This document shows, one piece after another, positions 4,300-11,398 of a stretch of DNA of 39,912 bases. Position 1 is the stretch's first letter. Each line of letters starts with the position of its first letter. Source of the DNA: Acidobacteriota bacterium (GTDB lineage: Bacteria; Acidobacteriota; Thermoanaerobaculia; Multivoradales; Multivoraceae); assembly GCA_026708285.1 (NCBI GenBank), contig JAPOVF010000129.1:1-39912 (forward strand), written 5' to 3'. A program made the translations under genes and the position numbers. The notes beneath the pieces are model-generated. The model searched no databases. It was not told the DNA's origin and worked only from the letters and a program-made list of their open reading frames with translations.

Positions 4300-6552
4300 T
4301 TAGCCGACGGCCCGGGGTAGAGCTTCGGTCCAGATACGCCGCAGCTCGTCGACCGAGCCGTCGACCGCGCCGCCATCAAAACCGAGCACGATGCGGTCAC
4401 CGCCCACTTCGCCAATGTCCGAAGCGGCCACGCCGAGGGCTTCCGCCGAAGCGAGCACCTCCTCGACCCGGGCCGGCGACGCCGTGACGATCGCCCTTCC
4501 CTGTCCTTCGGAGAAAAGACTCAGCGGACCGCCATCGAAGGATCCCCGCATGCCGAGGCCCCAGGGCATGGCGCACTCGGCCAGCGCCACGATCAATCCA
4601 CCCTCCGCGAGATCGTGACAGGCGCTCAGCCAACCCGACCGCCGCGCCCGGCGCAGCAGGCCGCAGAGGGCCGCCTCCCCCCCGAGATCGACGGAGGGCG
4701 GGCGCCCCGCCTCGACGCCGTAGAGCAGTCGCTGGTAGGCCGAGCCGCCGAACTCGTCTCCACTCCTGCCAAGCAGCAACACGCGATCCCCGGGGCGCCA
4801 GAAGCCGCAACCAAGCAGGCGGTTCAGCTCGCCCTCTACGCCCATCTCCATCAGCTCGTCGATCACACCCACCATCGCCACCGTCGGAGTCGGCCGCACG
4901 GCTTCGCCCTCGGTCTCGTTGTAGAGGGACACGTTGCCCGAGATCACCGGCACATCGAAGGCCCGGCACGCATCGGCCATCCCCGAGATGCACTCCCGAA
5001 GCTGCCACGCGATCTCGGGATTCTCAGGCGAGCCGAAGTTCAGACAGTTCGTCATGCCCACCGGCTCGGCACCCACGGTCGCCAGGTTCCGCACTGCCTC
5101 CGCCACCGCCTGCCGTCCACCGAGCCGCGGATCGAGCCAGCAGTACGAAGGGTTCACGTCCGAAGTCAGCGCGAGCGCCGACGGCGTGCCCTTGAGCCGC
5201 AGAACCGCCGCGTCCGAGCCCGGGCCGACGATCGTGTTCGAGCGCACGGTCGAGTCGTACTGTCGGAAGATCCACTCCTTGTCCCCAAGCTCGGGAGTCC
5301 CCAGCAGGCGCTTGAGCGCGCCGAGCGGATCGTCGGGCACCTCGGGTCGCACGTCCTCCTGACGCCGGGCCAGATCGGCCGGAGGCCGGGCAGGCCGGTC
5401 ATACACCGGCGCTCCGTCCACCAGCGGCTCGACCGGCATGTCCGCCACCGTCCGGCCGCGGAACGCCAGACGGGCTCGACCGTCCTCCGTAACCCGACCG
5501 ATCGTCCTTGCCTGAAGGCCCCAGCGGGCGAGGATCGAGGCGACCGTCCCTTCCTGCCCTCTCTGGGTGACGAACACCATCCGCTCCTGAGACTCGGAGA
5601 GCATGATCTCGTACGGAGTCAGGGACGCTTCACGCAGCGGCACCAAGTCGAGATCGAGCTCCACCCCCGCGCTACCACGCGCCGCCATCTCGAAGCAGGA
5701 GCTGGTGAGTCCGGCGGCTCCCATGTCCTGCACTCCGAGCACGACCCCGCTTCGCATCGCCTCGAGACTCGCTTCAAGCAGCACCTTCTCGGTGAACGGA
5801 TCACCGACCTGAACGGTCGGCCGCTTGGCTTCGCTCTCGCTATCGAAGGCCTCCGAAGCCATCGTCGCACCGTGAATGCCGTCCCGACCCGTCCGGCTTC
5901 CGGCATAGAGGATCGGGTTCCCGGCGCCCGAAGCGACAGCCGTGAAGATGCGCTCGCGACGACAGACGCCGAGCGCGAACGCGTTGACCAGGATGTTGCC
6001 GTTGTAGGAACTGTGGAAGCCGGTCTCGCCGCCGACCGTTGGAATACCGACACAGTTGCCGTAGTCCCCGATCCCCCTCACGACCCCGTCGACGAGGTGC
6101 CGCATGCGAGCGCCGCGCTCGCCGTCGATGTTCCCGAAGCGCAGGGAATCGAGACAGGCGATCGGACGGGCGCCCATCGTGAACACATCCCGCAGGATGC
6201 CGCCGACACCCGTGGCAGCACCCTGGTAGGGCTCGATAAAGCTCGGGTGGTTGTGGCTCTCCATCTTGAAGGCCGCCACCCAACCGTGACCGATTTCGAC
6301 GACTCCGGCGTTCTCGCCAGGCCCGTGAACAACCCGGCGACTCCGGGTCGGAAAGCGGCGCAGGTGGATCTTCGACGACTTGTACGAACAGTGTTCCGAG
6401 TAGAGAGCCGACGCAATCCCCAGCTCGGTGTAGGTCGGGACCCGTCCCAGAAGATCGCAGAGACCGCCGTATTCCTCTGTCGTCAGGCCGTGCTCCGACG
6501 CAAGCCTTGCATCCACCACAGGTTCGCCGGCGAGGGAACTGGGCGCCGTCAC
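4300..6552 (-). CDS. purL: Phosphoribosylformylglycinamidine synthase, large subunit
   Basis: PurL is the FGAM synthase subunit that uses ammonia delivered by PurQ, with PurS as bridge. From the GTG at 6552 the protein has 750 residues, the size of the small (Bacillus-type) PurL, which has no fused glutaminase and needs PurS and PurQ. Motifs: [38 protein letters not shown] with the catalytic His, GGETGFH, and a second AIRS half with SGNVSLYNE and DLAEGGL. The reading frame is open further upstream, but that part overlaps purQ in another frame and is unlike PurL; GTG 6552, just after the purQ stop, is chosen. The GAGG before it is rather close. Confidence 0.97.
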
Positions 6553-6557
6553 GACCT

Positions 6558-7277
6558 CTACCCGCCGACCGCCGCCGGCAACTCCGCCCCACGGCCGACC
6601 CGAACCGCTCCGGTCAGCAGTGCGAGACCGTCGCCGTTGCCCAGCAGGGCCTCGGCGCAGCGCTCCGGGTGGGGCATCAGCCCGAGCACGTTGCCCTCCG
6701 CGCTGCATACGCCGGCGATCGACCTCTTCGATCCGTTCAGGTTGGCCCCGGACGCCAGGTTCCCTTCGGAATCCACGTACCTGAAGACCACCTGTCCGCT
6801 CTGTTCCAGATCATCCAGGGCCTCGTCGGTGTCGACGTAGTTGCCCTCGGCATGGGCAATGGGCATGCGCAGCACCTCGCCCCGGCGGTATCCCGAGCAG
6901 TACACCAGGTCGTCGCGCTCGACCCTCAGGTGCACGTCGACGCTGAGGAAGCGGAGGTCGCGATTCCTCCGCATCGCGCCTGGAAGCAGGCCCGCCTCGA
7001 GGAGCATCTGGAAGCCGTTGCAGATGCCGAGCACCCGGCCTCCCGCTTCGGCGTGCCGCCGCACGGCGGCCATGATCGGCGAGTGCGCCGCCATCGACCC
7101 GGCGCGAAGGTAGTCGCCGTACGAGAATCCGCCCGGCAGGACGATCAGCTCGCATCCGTCAAGAGACGTCTTCTGGTGCCAGAGGAAGACCGTCTCTTGC
7201 TCGAGCACATGCCCGAGCACGTGGTAGACGTCGTGATCGCAGTTGCTGCCGGGGAAGACGACGATCCCGCACTTCAC
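6558..7277 (-). CDS. purQ: Phosphoribosylformylglycinamidine synthase, glutaminase subunit
   Basis: PurQ is the class I glutamine amidotransferase supplying ammonia to PurL. The 239 residues start [16 protein letters not shown] (GTG at 7277), carry the nucleophile Cys86 in GICNGFQML, and end with the His/Glu pair in LMPHPERC. An upstream in-frame start would add 20 residues without homology, so GTG 7277 is preferred. It overlaps purS in GTGA (start GTG, stop TGA). Family length is ~225-230; the C-terminus is a little longer. Confidence 0.97.
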
Positions 7278-7540
7278 GCCCGGATCCACTCCACGCTGTA
7301 GTCCTCGACGATGGGGTTCGCGAGCAGATGGCGGCACATGCGGTCAACCGCTTCCGAGGCCTCGGTGCTGCTCGCCGCACGAAGAGCGACCTCGAAGCTC
7401 TTGCCGGCCCGGATGCGCTGTACACCGTCGAAGCCGATTCGCTCGAGCGCGCCTTCGATCGCCCGCCCCTGGGGATCGAGAACCTCGGCACGCGGATAGA
7501 CCAGCACCCGCGCCACGAAGCGCTTTCCGTCCGGCGTCAA
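7274..7540 (-). CDS. purS: Phosphoribosylformylglycinamidine synthase subunit PurS
   Basis: PurS is the small protein that docks PurQ to PurL. The diagnostic stretch is ARVLVYPRAEVLDPQGRAIEGAL followed by GFDGVQRIRAGKSFEV. A TTG start at 7540 is chosen: it is preceded by GGAGG (7550-7546) at 5-nt spacing, lies 1 nt after the stop of the metallo-beta-lactamase gene, and gives 88 residues, close to the usual 80-85. GTG codons at 7516 and 7564 are alternatives. The tight junction places purS in the same transcript as the upstream gene. Confidence 0.93.
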   Translation of the reverse strand: MTPDGKRFVARVLVYPRAEVLDPQGRAIEGALERIGFDGVQRIRAGKSFEVALRAASSTEASEAVDRMCRHLLANPIVEDYSVEWIRA

Positions 7541-7541
7541 C

Positions 7542-8447
7542 TCAACCTCCCCTGTGCCATCCACTTTCCGTACCGACGTCCAACCAGGGCCCCGGCCGAT
7601 GCTGTTCGGCCACCACCAGCTTCGCGCGTGAACACCGGCGATCGAGAACCGGTTGCACCGCCGCGGCGGCAAACGCGGGCGAGTTGTTGGTTTGCGACAG
7701 ATGGCACAGGACGACCCACGACAAGCGATCCGACAGGAGCTCGTCGAGGCCGGCCGCGGCTTCCTCGTTGCTGAGGTGTCCCCGCGCCGACGCCACTCGC
7801 TCCTTCAGGCGCCAAGGGTATGGTCCCGTGCGCAGCATGTCGAGATCGTGATTCGACTCGAGCAGCAGAACGTCGAGATCCTGGAGACTCCGCCAGGCTT
7901 CCGCGGTTCGGCGACCCAGATCGGTCACCAGCCCCAGGCGATATCCACCACCGCTTTCGACGACGATCCCGACCGGCTCCCGCGCGTCGTGGGACACCGG
8001 GAACACCTCGATCCGGAATCCGGCCATGGTGAGCGGAACGCCGGGCCCCATCGGCCGGGCGAGGTTGCCCAGGCCGCCCAAGTCGGGGTCGCGATACGTG
8101 CCGCGGGTTCCGTAGACGGGAACCCGGTGGCGTCGAGCAAAGCGGCTGGCGCCGCGACTGTGGTCATTGTGCTCGTGGGTCAGCAGCACCGCGTCCACGT
8201 CGGCCGCGGAACGGCCGACCATCTCCAGCCTCCGCTCCAGCTCCCGGCACGAGAAGCCGGCATCCAGCAGCAGGCAGCCGTCGACGCTCTCCACGATCGT
8301 CGCGTTGCCTCCGCTTCCTGATCCGAGTACCGCCGCTCGCAGGCCAACTCCGCTGGCGCCTCGGCGCCGCCTCAATTCGAGCTTTGACTCTCGCGCGGCG
8401 GCCGCCAGGGCGCCGTCGCCGAACAGCGAGAGTTGGCCTCCAGGCAT
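7542..8447 (-). CDS. YycJ/WalJ-type metallo-beta-lactamase-fold hydrolase with N-terminal beta-clamp motif
   Basis: The 301-residue protein is an MBL-fold hydrolase. LGSGSGGNAT (about 41-50) and the metal motif HEHNDH (91-96) are typical of the YycJ/WalJ branch, as are VTDLG, ESNHD and the GHLSNEEAA region. Family members are putative nucleases; B. anthracis yycJ mutants are reported mutators. An unusual ~35-residue N-terminal extension holds QLSLF at residues 5-9, the exact consensus pentapeptide for binding the DNA polymerase sliding clamp. ATG 8447 is chosen over an in-frame TTG at 8453; both keep the motif. It sits directly before purS (1 nt gap) and 38 nt after the outer-membrane protein gene. 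Substrate unknown. Confidence 0.88.
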   Translation of the reverse strand: MPGGQLSLFGDGALAAAARESKLELRRRRGASGVGLRAAVLGSGSGGNATIVESVDGCLLLDAGFSCRELERRLEMVGRSAADVDAVLLTHEHNDHSRGASRFARRHRVPVYGTRGTYRDPDLGGLGNLARPMGPGVPLTMAGFRIEVFPVSHDAREPVGIVVESGGGYRLGLVTDLGRRTAEAWRSLQDLDVLLLESNHDLDMLRTGPYPWRLKERVASARGHLSNEEAAAGLDELLSDRLSWVVLCHLSQTNNSPAFAAAAVQPVLDRRCSRAKLVVAEQHRPGPWLDVGTESGWHRGG

Positions 8448-8485
8448 CCGCAATCAGGCTGATCGATGCCCGCCCCGGCCGGTCT

Positions 8486-11398
8486 TCAGAAGCGCTGGCC
8501 GATCCAGAACGTCGTACGGCTGTCGCCCGACTCCTTCAGGTCCCACTGGGTCGCGAAGTCCCAGTGGAGATCGACGCCGAGCATCCTCACCGTGAGTCCG
8601 AAGCCGTAGGCGGCGATCGCATCATCCAGCCGGCTGTTCTCGGAGTCCCAGATCTCGAAATCCTGGATGCCGTCGAAGTAGGCGCCCGCGATGTCGAGGA
8701 AGAACCGCCCCTGGATCCCCTGGAAGGTCCAGATGGGTGTCACGAAGAAATCGATCAGCGGGAAGCGCAACTCGAGATTGGTGAAGAAACCGTGGTCGCC
8801 GACCATGTCGCGGAAGTCCACGCCCCGCACCGTGTCCAGGCCGCCGAAGTACACGGGTGTCGGAAAGTTCCCCGTTCTCACGCTGGCGAACAACCGGGTC
8901 GCGAAGACACTGCGCCGGGTGAGCGGGAAGTACTTGCGCGCGTCGAGTTGGAACGTCTGGGTCAGGGCGCCGGACGTTTCGAGGTCCGGGGAGTACTCGG
9001 CCGAGAGGCGGTAGCGGTGGCCGCTCGACGGTCCTGCCGGCCCGAACACCGTCGTGTCCCCGACCAGCGCGGCATCAATCGACGGATAGTCATCCTCGCG
9101 CGGAACGACGATGGGAATCGGGCGGCCGAAATCGTCGAGTAGCAGGTTGTAGTCGCTGTCGCGCGCGTACTGCTGAAAGTCCAGCTTGCGCCGGATGTAG
9201 CTCACTCCCAGCTCGAACCGCCGGTAGAAGCTCATCGGGTAGGAGATCGAGAATCTGGTGCCGGTGTACTGGATCGCGGACCGGCCGCGCTCGTAGTACC
9301 CGTAGCGGTAGTTACGGCTGACGTAGAAGTGGCGCTCGTCGAACAGCGACACCTGCCATTGGAGCCGGTTCGAGAGGTTCAGATAGGACACGTTGAACTG
9401 CGAGAATTGCTCGATCGAAGCGAAGGTCGTGAACAGGCGCCGGTCGCCGAGGAAGTCCGAGAACTGGAGGTAGACCAGCCCCAGGAAGGTCTGGTTGTCG
9501 TCCACGCCGATCGCTGTCTGGGCGTCCTCCAGGAACAGCCGCCAGCCGCGCTTGTCCTCCTTGTTCGACTCGTCGATGGAGACCTGAATATCGGGCTCGA
9601 AGAGCTCGATGGGCGGAATCGGATCGCCTCCGGTGCTCACGTCGACGACCTGGACCTCGCCGATCGGTTCGTCGACGTCCGTCTCGTAGAGGTCGAACCG
9701 CCCCTGCCAGAAGCCGGTGTACACCAGCCGGTCATCGCTGCCCGCCTTGGTCAGCACGGTGGGCTGGAAGCAGCCGGTGATCGCATTCGTGTACTGACGC
9801 AGCTCGCCGGTCTGAAGGTCGAGCCCGAAGATGTTCTCCGCGCCGGTTCGATCCGACGTGAAGTACACCCTGCGGTCGTCTCCCGAAAAGACGGGGTCCG
9901 TGTTGTGGTACTCGTCGCTGCCGAGCCGGGATCGCTCCCTCGTCTCGAGATCCAGGCGGAAGAGCTGGGCCGTCTCGCCCGGCACCGAGGAGAACACGAG
10001 CCATCTTCCGTCGTGGGAATAGGACGGCGCGCCGTCGAAGACCTCGTCGTTTGTGAGGTTTCGGATCTCGAGGGTATCCAGGTCGAGCTCGAAGATGTCG
10101 TACTGGCCGTTCTGGTTGCCGCCGAACGCGACCCTCCTTCCGTCCGGACTCCAGCTGGGCGCCGTCTGCTGCTCGATCTCCATGTCGATCACGCGGCGCA
10201 CGCCGCCGCCGATCACGTTGACGATCGCCAGGGAGTAGCCATCTTCCTTGCGCACGAAGGCGGCAAGCGAGTTTCCGTCTGGCGAGAAAGCGAGGTCGCG
10301 TCCGTGCTTGCGTCCCAGGCTCAGCATCTGGGCGACGTAGTGCCGGAACTCGGCGGTGTACCCCTTGGTCAGGTTCCGCACAGGCTCGCGCTCCTGCGTA
10401 TCGAAGAGCACGATGTCGATATCGCCCTGGAAAGTCGAGAACGCGGCCACGAGATCGCCCGAAGGCGACGCCACCGGGGACGTTTCCTGGCTACCCTGCG
10501 GCCGCGTCCTGAACGGTCGGCCGAAGTCGCTGGGCTCGCCGGTCGCGACCAGCTCGGGCAGGTACTGGTTACGGAGCCAGCGCCGGAACTCCAGGTCGAA
10601 GTCCTCCGGATCGATCCGGAAGGCGCGCTCGATCGCGCGGCCGACGCGGGCGCCGATCGTGTTCCGGAACTCGAAGAGGAAGTCGATCACGCCGTCCGCA
10701 CCCCACCGCTCCTCCATGAAGTCGAACGCGGCGTGGCCGTAGCGGTAGGCGAAGAAACCGCCGGCCTGACCCGATGTGATCGGCGGCAGACGGTCATTCA
10801 CCACCGCATCCCGAAGGTACATCCGGTCCGAGGTGCTCTCGTCCTTGGCGAAGTAGCTCGCCATCCCCTCCATCAACCACTGGGGAGGATTGGTCGTCAG
10901 AGCACGTCCGAGGCTGCCTCCAAACAGGATGTGGTACTGGAAGATGTGGGTCAGCTCGTGGAGGAGCAACTCGTAGAGCTCGATGTCCGGCAGGTCGATC
11001 GGCATCACCATCCGGAACCTTGCGGACGTGGCGAAGGCGGCGACTCCCTCCGGGATGAAGTTGATCATCACGTTGTTCTGGAGGAAGTCCGAGTGCGTGT
11101 TGTAGATGATCAGCGGCGTCGGCTCCTGGATCTGGTAGTCCAGGTCGAGGGACAGTTGATCGTAGGCGCTCTCGGCCATCGAAGCCACCTTCTGGAGCTG
11201 GTTCTCGCTCTCCGAGTAGTAGTAGATGTCGAAGTGAGTCGAGTGGTAGATGCGCCAGTCGAAGTCCTCGTAGCGGACCTTGTTCTTGCCGAAGCCCTGA
11301 GCCTCCAGGCCGGCGCCGGCACCGACCAGAAGCGCGCACGCGAGTGCGGCTGTGCGAAAGGCCCACTGTCGCGCGGGCCGTAGTACTGGTGAGTGCAC
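8486..11398 (-). CDS. Outer-membrane protein: gluzincin peptidase domain, TolB-like propeller, BamA-like barrel
   Basis: This 970-residue protein has a signal peptide (to about residue 34, ending LEAQ). A peptidase MA-like domain follows, with HELTH at 147-151 and a likely third ligand Glu177 in WLMEGMASYFA, so the zinc site looks intact. Residues ~300-620 hold repeated TolB/PD40 blades (FSPDGNSLAAF, WSPDGRRVAFGG, YSHDGRWLVFSS, FSGDDRRVYFTSDRTG). The last ~300 residues resemble a surface antigen/BamA barrel: GGLDTVRG and a terminal Phe (WIGQRF), the Bam recognition signal. The start is GTG 11398 behind GGGAGGAG. That Shine-Dalgarno overlaps the stop region of the preceding gene, so they are coupled. 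Probably a secreted or surface protease of unknown substrate. Confidence 0.85.
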   Translation of the reverse strand: MHSPVLRPARQWAFRTAALACALLVGAGAGLEAQGFGKNKVRYEDFDWRIYHSTHFDIYYYSESENQLQKVASMAESAYDQLSLDLDYQIQEPTPLIIYNTHSDFLQNNVMINFIPEGVAAFATSARFRMVMPIDLPDIELYELLLHELTHIFQYHILFGGSLGRALTTNPPQWLMEGMASYFAKDESTSDRMYLRDAVVNDRLPPITSGQAGGFFAYRYGHAAFDFMEERWGADGVIDFLFEFRNTIGARVGRAIERAFRIDPEDFDLEFRRWLRNQYLPELVATGEPSDFGRPFRTRPQGSQETSPVASPSGDLVAAFSTFQGDIDIVLFDTQEREPVRNLTKGYTAEFRHYVAQMLSLGRKHGRDLAFSPDGNSLAAFVRKEDGYSLAIVNVIGGGVRRVIDMEIEQQTAPSWSPDGRRVAFGGNQNGQYDIFELDLDTLEIRNLTNDEVFDGAPSYSHDGRWLVFSSVPGETAQLFRLDLETRERSRLGSDEYHNTDPVFSGDDRRVYFTSDRTGAENIFGLDLQTGELRQYTNAITGCFQPTVLTKAGSDDRLVYTGFWQGRFDLYETDVDEPIGEVQVVDVSTGGDPIPPIELFEPDIQVSIDESNKEDKRGWRLFLEDAQTAIGVDDNQTFLGLVYLQFSDFLGDRRLFTTFASIEQFSQFNVSYLNLSNRLQWQVSLFDERHFYVSRNYRYGYYERGRSAIQYTGTRFSISYPMSFYRRFELGVSYIRRKLDFQQYARDSDYNLLLDDFGRPIPIVVPREDDYPSIDAALVGDTTVFGPAGPSSGHRYRLSAEYSPDLETSGALTQTFQLDARKYFPLTRRSVFATRLFASVRTGNFPTPVYFGGLDTVRGVDFRDMVGDHGFFTNLELRFPLIDFFVTPIWTFQGIQGRFFLDIAGAYFDGIQDFEIWDSENSRLDDAIAAYGFGLTVRMLGVDLHWDFATQWDLKESGDSRTTFWIGQRF

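Follow-up and report, generated by a model that had tools for sequence, protein, structure and literature searches.

The stretch of DNA analyzed here (39,912 nucleotides; hereafter the window) carries a YycJ/WalJ-type gene of the MBL fold between purS and a gene for a PD40 beta-propeller protein (Table 1). purQ and purL come after purS, both exceeding the cut-offs of their NCBIfam models (PurQ and PurL), and repair genes are absent from this neighborhood. We doubt that the PD40 neighbor and yycJ are functionally linked. A purine-gene neighborhood recurs elsewhere: yycJ adjoins purS-purQ-purL in the window (4303-8447) and purC on a Pseudomonas aeruginosa record (L318).

Table 1. Features of the yycJ locus, in window coordinates.
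Feature	Position	Strand	Detail
YycJ/WalJ-type MBL-fold gene	7542..8447	(-)	301 aa from ATG at 8447
N-terminal tail, residues 1-35	8343..8447	(-)	MPGG + QLSLF + GDGALAAAARESKLELRRRRGASGVG
Predicted clamp-binding motif QLSLF	8421..8435	(-)	residues 5-9 (ATG)
MBL nuclease-like core, residues 36-301	7545..8342	(-)	PF12706 75 bits, PF00753 55.7 bits
HxHxDH metal-binding motif (HEHNDH, residues 91-96)	8160..8177	(-)	sequence
purS, adjoining gene downstream	7277..7531	(-)	NCBIfam PurS above cut-off
PD40 beta-propeller protein, upstream neighbor	8486..11398	(-)	stops 38 bp before yycJ ATG

As listed, the open reading frame spans 7542..8453 on the reverse strand and begins with TTG at 8453, with the ATG lying downstream in frame. 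This TTG is the sole earlier start, and an in-frame stop stands immediately upstream of it. Read from the ATG, the protein opens with MPGGQLSLFGDG, and the product comprises an N-terminal stretch (MPGGQLSLFGDGALAAAARESKLELRRRRGASGVG) followed by the core (LRAAVLGSGSGGN). The QLSLF motif occupies residues 5-9 when counted from the ATG (MPGGQLSLF) and residues 7-11 from the TTG, and is retained with either start. It is followed by a linker that begins with Ala and continues rich in Arg and Gly (GDGALAAAARESKLELRRRRGASGVG). The sequence-only reading had placed QLSLF at residues 5-9 of a YycJ-type MBL frame, ahead of an Ala/Arg-rich linker and an MBL core; the frame is real, and motif, tail, and core with its HxHxDH and Pfam matches were all recovered in ATG numbering. 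The tail is missing in tail-less relatives, whose frames open at the core. Recoding through the in-frame TGA flags was considered and rejected, since in the loci read in frame TGA is an ordinary stop at the end of the alignment.

An NCBIfam scan of the window protein returned no YycJ model among its matches, and family membership was therefore established through the wal-operon protein. The core shares 36% identity over 242 aligned positions (168 bits) with the MBL protein of the Priestia megaterium wal operon, which lies between yycI and a trypsin-like gene in the order yycF-walK-yycH-yycI-MBL-trypsin-like-rlmH, and 40% identity over 237 positions with a Phascolarctobacterium protein adjoining htrA and rlmH. 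This homology to the wal-operon MBL protein assigns the window protein to the YycJ/WalJ family. The Priestia wal operon and rlmH (L315, NZ_CP140268.1) sit on a record labeled as a 410-kb plasmid. The window gene itself lies outside a wal operon, and the Pseudomonas, Bacteroides, and Neochlamydia relatives also have other neighbors; we accordingly use the core to judge membership beyond Bacilli, where a wal-operon location is not taken as defining. The MBL metal site is complete: in an alignment of 64 proteins (the window protein numbered from residue 2), the H, H, D, and H columns of HxHxDH and the later His/Asp metal ligands are invariant. Published work describes YycJ/WalJ as an exonuclease that acts 5'-3' on duplex DNA and takes part in mismatch repair in Bacillus anthracis, where interruption of YycJ gives a mutator phenotype (extracts of PMC4801191). 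By homology, the window protein is likely a 5'-3' DNA exonuclease.

The sequence-only reading had asked whether the motif is kept within an otherwise variable N-terminus, with homologs that lack it or begin after it as the refuting case; conservation was borne out within the genus and in 22 of 38 other loci of the order. QL[SP]LF is retained in all 21 same-genus genomes, the window included, and among its five residues the third alone varies (S/P). Synonymous codon changes occur in three of the four positions other than the third. Within the genus, dN/dS is 0.095 when QLxLF is taken together with the four residues after it, 0.32 for the linker, and 0.05 for the start of the core; the five motif residues taken alone give 0.24, a value due entirely to the S/P change. 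The starts themselves vary, being either ATG with PGG-like residues or TTG with [SR]R. The TTG starts (among L009-L020, L022, and L023) mostly lie 1 nt past a GGAG, unusually near for a ribosome site, and members starting with ATG mostly have GGAGG just within the gene.

Outside the genus, 39 further genomes of the order were sampled, 38 of them with a YycJ locus; the exception was G035, whose match reached only E 2.7e-4. When a possible start codon is required ahead of the motif, 22 of the 38 loci carry an N-terminal clamp motif, 12 of them in strict form, if overlapping matches are counted (21 and 11 if they are not, the difference being L089). The motifs occur as pentapeptides (QLSLF, QLDLF, QIRLF, QASLF, QLELF, QPSLF) and as hexapeptides (QLHLGL, QMPLGL, QMALGL, QLDLGL, QLPLSL, QLELAF, QSLLDF, QSLLDL, QAPLNF, QAPLPF, QAALPF), and the stretch from motif to core is variable in both length and sequence. 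The other 16 loci lack the pattern. Among the sampled loci, it is absent from families f4 (4), f6 (6), and f7 (2) and from two loci of f9. Two of the 16 have near-misses (QLAVPF, QQSFFAP), and two, both of f6, bear a C-terminal motif instead.

The same recurrence was seen among database relatives. From the best 120 of 2135 hits we parsed 105 N-terminal tails of at least 8 aa, three of which are mis-parsed fragments. A strict motif is present in 28 of the 105 (shuffle mean 0.5, maximum 5), and a relaxed motif, which was devised post hoc after the tails had been inspected and which scores several truncated-looking gene calls as misses, in 89 (shuffle mean 5.2, maximum 13). After clustering at 75% identity, the relaxed motif occurs in 28 of 33 tails (shuffle mean 2.0) and the strict motif in 10 (mean 0.3). 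Recurrence of the motif across the family is far above chance. For background, we took 235 non-YycJ ORFs with a minimum length of 250 aa out of the window and the retrieved loci, many of which are probably shadow frames; their N-termini hold one strict and five relaxed motifs, and their C-termini none and two, respectively.

Beyond the order, the N-terminal form all but disappears. Among Acidobacteriota loci from other orders (99 given, 94 readable), an N-tail motif occurs once, as a weak QKSLYL, and in the named-genome set (66 given) it is absent from all 34 loci readable for N-tails. The other end of the protein gave a different picture. Two tail-less f6 proteins of the window's own order end in clamp-like sequences (QLSLFG in L088, QGTLF in L067); having the C-terminal tag without an N-terminal one, they look like a switch of ends. 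C-terminal motifs also occur in other families of the class (L182 QMPLF, L218 QMALF, L223 QLSLF), in further tail-less proteins (L215 QLRLW, L121 QLRLF, L241 QVSLPF, L245 QVALPF), and on a Gemmatimonadetes record (L114, QIDLF). The counts are 2 of 37 order loci, 8 of 93 Acidobacteriota loci from outside the order (6 once L203 and L211, whose matches lie within the core and are taken as chance, are set aside), and 4 of 66 in the named-genome set, where all C-termini were read in the match frame (L114, L121, L107, and L126). By its look, the match in L107 is a chance one. In tail-less L126 (Oscillospiraceae, Bacillota), QMPLW ends five residues short of the C-terminus, which may be chance or a further tagged lineage. 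Within the class sample, the C-terminal motif is present in 13 of 13 readable f10 loci (14 given) and in the one f12 locus; no accepted C-terminal motif was found in the 27 loci of f11, f13, f14, f76, and f77, a sample in which one gene appears twice and three loci end before the stop. A relaxed match in L304 was not accepted, as it lies inside the core.

In two of these lineages the C-terminal motif is strongly conserved. Among relatives of L223 (best 120 of 6387 hits), a strict motif falls within the last 25 residues in 120 of 120 (shuffle mean 0.8), exactly at the C-terminus in 99. Among those of L114 (best 120 of 5290 hits), the last 25 residues hold a strict motif in 91 and a relaxed one in 109 of 120 (shuffle means 0.5 and 7.3), and 92 of the 109 lie exactly at the C-terminus; here pentapeptides (QLSLF, QMDLF, QIDLF) interchange with hexapeptides (QLSLGL, QLDLAL, QLAFDL). 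Clustering at 70% identity reduces the L223 set to 6 clusters and the L114 set to 41, with the relaxed motif in 37 of the 41. Since both sets are the best-listed hits of motif-bearing queries, they give conservation in those lineages and not prevalence. The tags were placed on a quickly built tree of 65 cores, in which support is weak at 19 of 62 inner forks; with the two near-miss tails scored as absent and one row set by hand, parsimony requires 4 changes for the C-terminal tag, 6 for the N-terminal tag, and 10 for a three-state character.

The predicted clamp hook sits N-terminally in one order and C-terminally in others, and because other lineages bear the C-terminal motif, the pattern is one of repeated clamp-tagging of YycJ and not of one tail in one lineage. 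Many YycJ proteins carry no tag at all. Families f4, f7, f11, f13, f14, f76, and f77 have YycJ with an accepted tag at neither end in the sampled loci, most Acidobacteriota YycJ loci outside the order are tag-free, and Priestia WalJ begins at the core, with both a terminal extension and a clamp motif absent. A tether is therefore not needed for YycJ function generally, as the sampled families and Priestia WalJ are without one; the tag is an accessory, lineage-level option, without which sister lineages and Priestia WalJ manage. This agrees with the lineage-specific repair nuclease suggested by the sequence-only reading.

The prospective partners are encoded in the same genome. DnaN is present as one full-length copy (TIGR00663, 281.5 bits) that aligns lengthwise with solved bacterial clamps, and the genome thus has a clamp of the standard type to go with a QL(S/D)LF-type motif in a protein terminus. 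This DnaN keeps the segments TDGHRL, FPDYEKV, and a C-terminal IMPMRL, of which TDGHRL, FPDYEKV, and MPMRL are, we assume from E. coli, those that form the peptide pocket. One MutS1 scores above cut-off and has QLSLW within its C-terminal tail (L271); in QLSLW, tryptophan takes the last place of the clamp motif. One MutL scores above cut-off, bearing QTLLVP and DQHVAHERILYE; we take DQHA(X)2E(X)4E in MutL to be an endonuclease mark. QTLLVP agrees with the MutL consensus Qxh(L/I)xP and is similar to the QTLLLP that brings MutL to the replisome in Caulobacter, both given in extracts of PMC8034640 together with the MutS motifs QMSLL and QLSFF. MutH (TIGR02248) was not found in this genome, which is 93.6% complete, with an E. 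coli control positive. For MutH-less systems, the same extracts of PMC8034640 present a scheme in which degradation of the nicked strand falls to the WalJ exonuclease.

Taken together, these observations are best explained by a YycJ/WalJ exonuclease that is bound to DnaN through its N-terminal QLSLF and serves in mismatch repair, a reading we regard as probable from sequence comparison. Its two parts differ in strength: the tail motif very probably binds DnaN, and a role in mismatch repair in this lineage is suggested less firmly. In the mechanism we propose, the QLSLF peptide would insert into the hydrophobic pocket of DnaN, the sliding clamp, and the flexible linker would keep the YycJ nuclease at newly replicated DNA. 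MutS, with its QLSLW tail, would detect a mismatch, and the MutL endonuclease (QTLLVP) would nick the new strand beside the clamp; the clamp-held YycJ could then enter at the nick and excise toward the mismatch.

The tag by itself is silent on pathway, and the clamp-bound nuclease might instead serve another task at the fork, beside RecJ, such as resection where forks have arrested or trimming of 5' ends on lagging-strand fragments. In keeping with this, walJ and recJ were among the DNA-repair genes recovered in a B. subtilis screen for survival after replication arrest (extracts of PMC9836290). We nevertheless consider such a task unlikely in place of mismatch repair, given the mutator phenotype and mismatch-repair assignment in B. 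anthracis cited above and the clamp motifs that this genome's MutS and MutL also carry. The motif could also bind a partner other than the clamp, or be a signal of the start region, as it lies at the very terminus of the protein and clamp binding is a prediction. Hexapeptides are a form of bacterial clamp motif, and the residues allowed, the freedom of the third position, and the swapping of penta- and hexapeptides all fit such motifs; moreover, a motif found at either end of the protein is unlike a translation signal. Both versions of this explanation thus appear quite improbable. A further alternative is a chance pentapeptide in an Ala/Arg-rich tail under low constraint. The codon pattern Q-[LF]-x-[LF]-F is not enriched genome-wide, with 38 occurrences in 4.99 Mb, and is rarer than its reversed control (75), so that a single QLSLF match is not significant; the second exact QLSLF codon match in the genome (C93) lies mid-frame in an anonymous ORF. 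However, all 21 same-genus genomes conserve the motif, and it recurs in dissimilar tails far more often than in shuffles, which makes coincidence almost inconceivable.

The remaining alternative concerns the core, which might be a small-molecule phosphodiesterase of the PhnP or Apyc1 kind, placed at the clamp for some other reason. The window protein does match the PhnP NCBIfam model, but at 28.8 bits against an equivalog cut-off of 272.25 bits, and a sequence search of the PDB returned Apyc1 at E 1.4e-4, but with ribonuclease TTHA0252 as the best matches at similarly weak E. Among the matches listed, most relatives carry PF23023 (Anti-Pycsar_Apyc1) in the precomputed Pfam column, and source names include 'phosphoribosyl 1,2-cyclic phosphodiesterase'; in our own scans, by contrast, the window protein gave no PF23023 match at E 0.001 and L223 scored only 21.2 bits where the cut-off is 50. 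The wal-operon relative, moreover, is YycJ/WalJ, described as a DNA exonuclease, and a soluble enzyme acting on metabolites would have little use for a clamp tag. We therefore regard a phosphodiesterase as very improbable.

Returning to the clamp-bound exonuclease, the best reading of the comparative evidence is that YycJ in these bacteria would be a sliding-clamp client whose tag was gained more than once. We lean toward a broader interpretation, in which YycJ exonucleases form an unlisted class of clamp clients, repeatedly hooked to the clamp in at least two phyla, and may supply the clamp-bound excision nuclease of MutH-less mismatch repair. Extracts of a review give the clamp consensus as QL(S/D)LF and name MutS, MutL, NucS, Nei2, and XthA as partners; YycJ occurs nowhere in the review's text (PMC9690074). 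The sequence-only reading knew of no earlier description, and we likewise found no paper in the open-licence literature linking YycJ or an MBL-fold protein with a clamp motif; the exonuclease family is known, and its clamp tag appears undescribed within the literature searched. In MutH-less bacteria, the exonuclease that acts after MutL nicking, and its hold on the new strand, are poorly defined. A clamp tag on YycJ would put this repair step in direct connection with the replication fork, and the fact that lineages differ in which end of the protein bears the tag is evolutionary evidence for YycJ working at the clamp. A five-residue tag also offers simple tests, with tagged and untagged species as a natural comparison.

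Among known systems, the Apyc1 and PhnP phosphodiesterases share the MBL fold and weak sequence matches with the window protein, but the scores fall under curated cut-offs and the substrates differ; to our knowledge, these enzymes have no clamp tag. The closer likeness is to YycJ/WalJ of Bacilli, with which the window protein shares a homologous core (36% over 242 positions) bearing HxHxDH and, farther downstream, GH[LV]SNE and HLSQ.NN. Unlike Priestia WalJ, the window protein is tagged and its gene lies by purSQL and not by walRK. NucS/EndoMS has a fold other than that of YycJ and is independent of MutS and MutL. It is an endonuclease, whereas YycJ is a predicted exonuclease; yet in its case, too, a nuclease of mismatch repair is linked to the clamp (extracts of PMC9690074), as is predicted here for YycJ. 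The predicted tethering also resembles that of MutS and MutL, in which a short terminal or linker motif brings a mismatch-repair enzyme to DnaN (extracts of PMC8034640). In contrast to MutS and MutL, the tag here sits on the predicted downstream exonuclease, and at its N- or C-terminus according to lineage.
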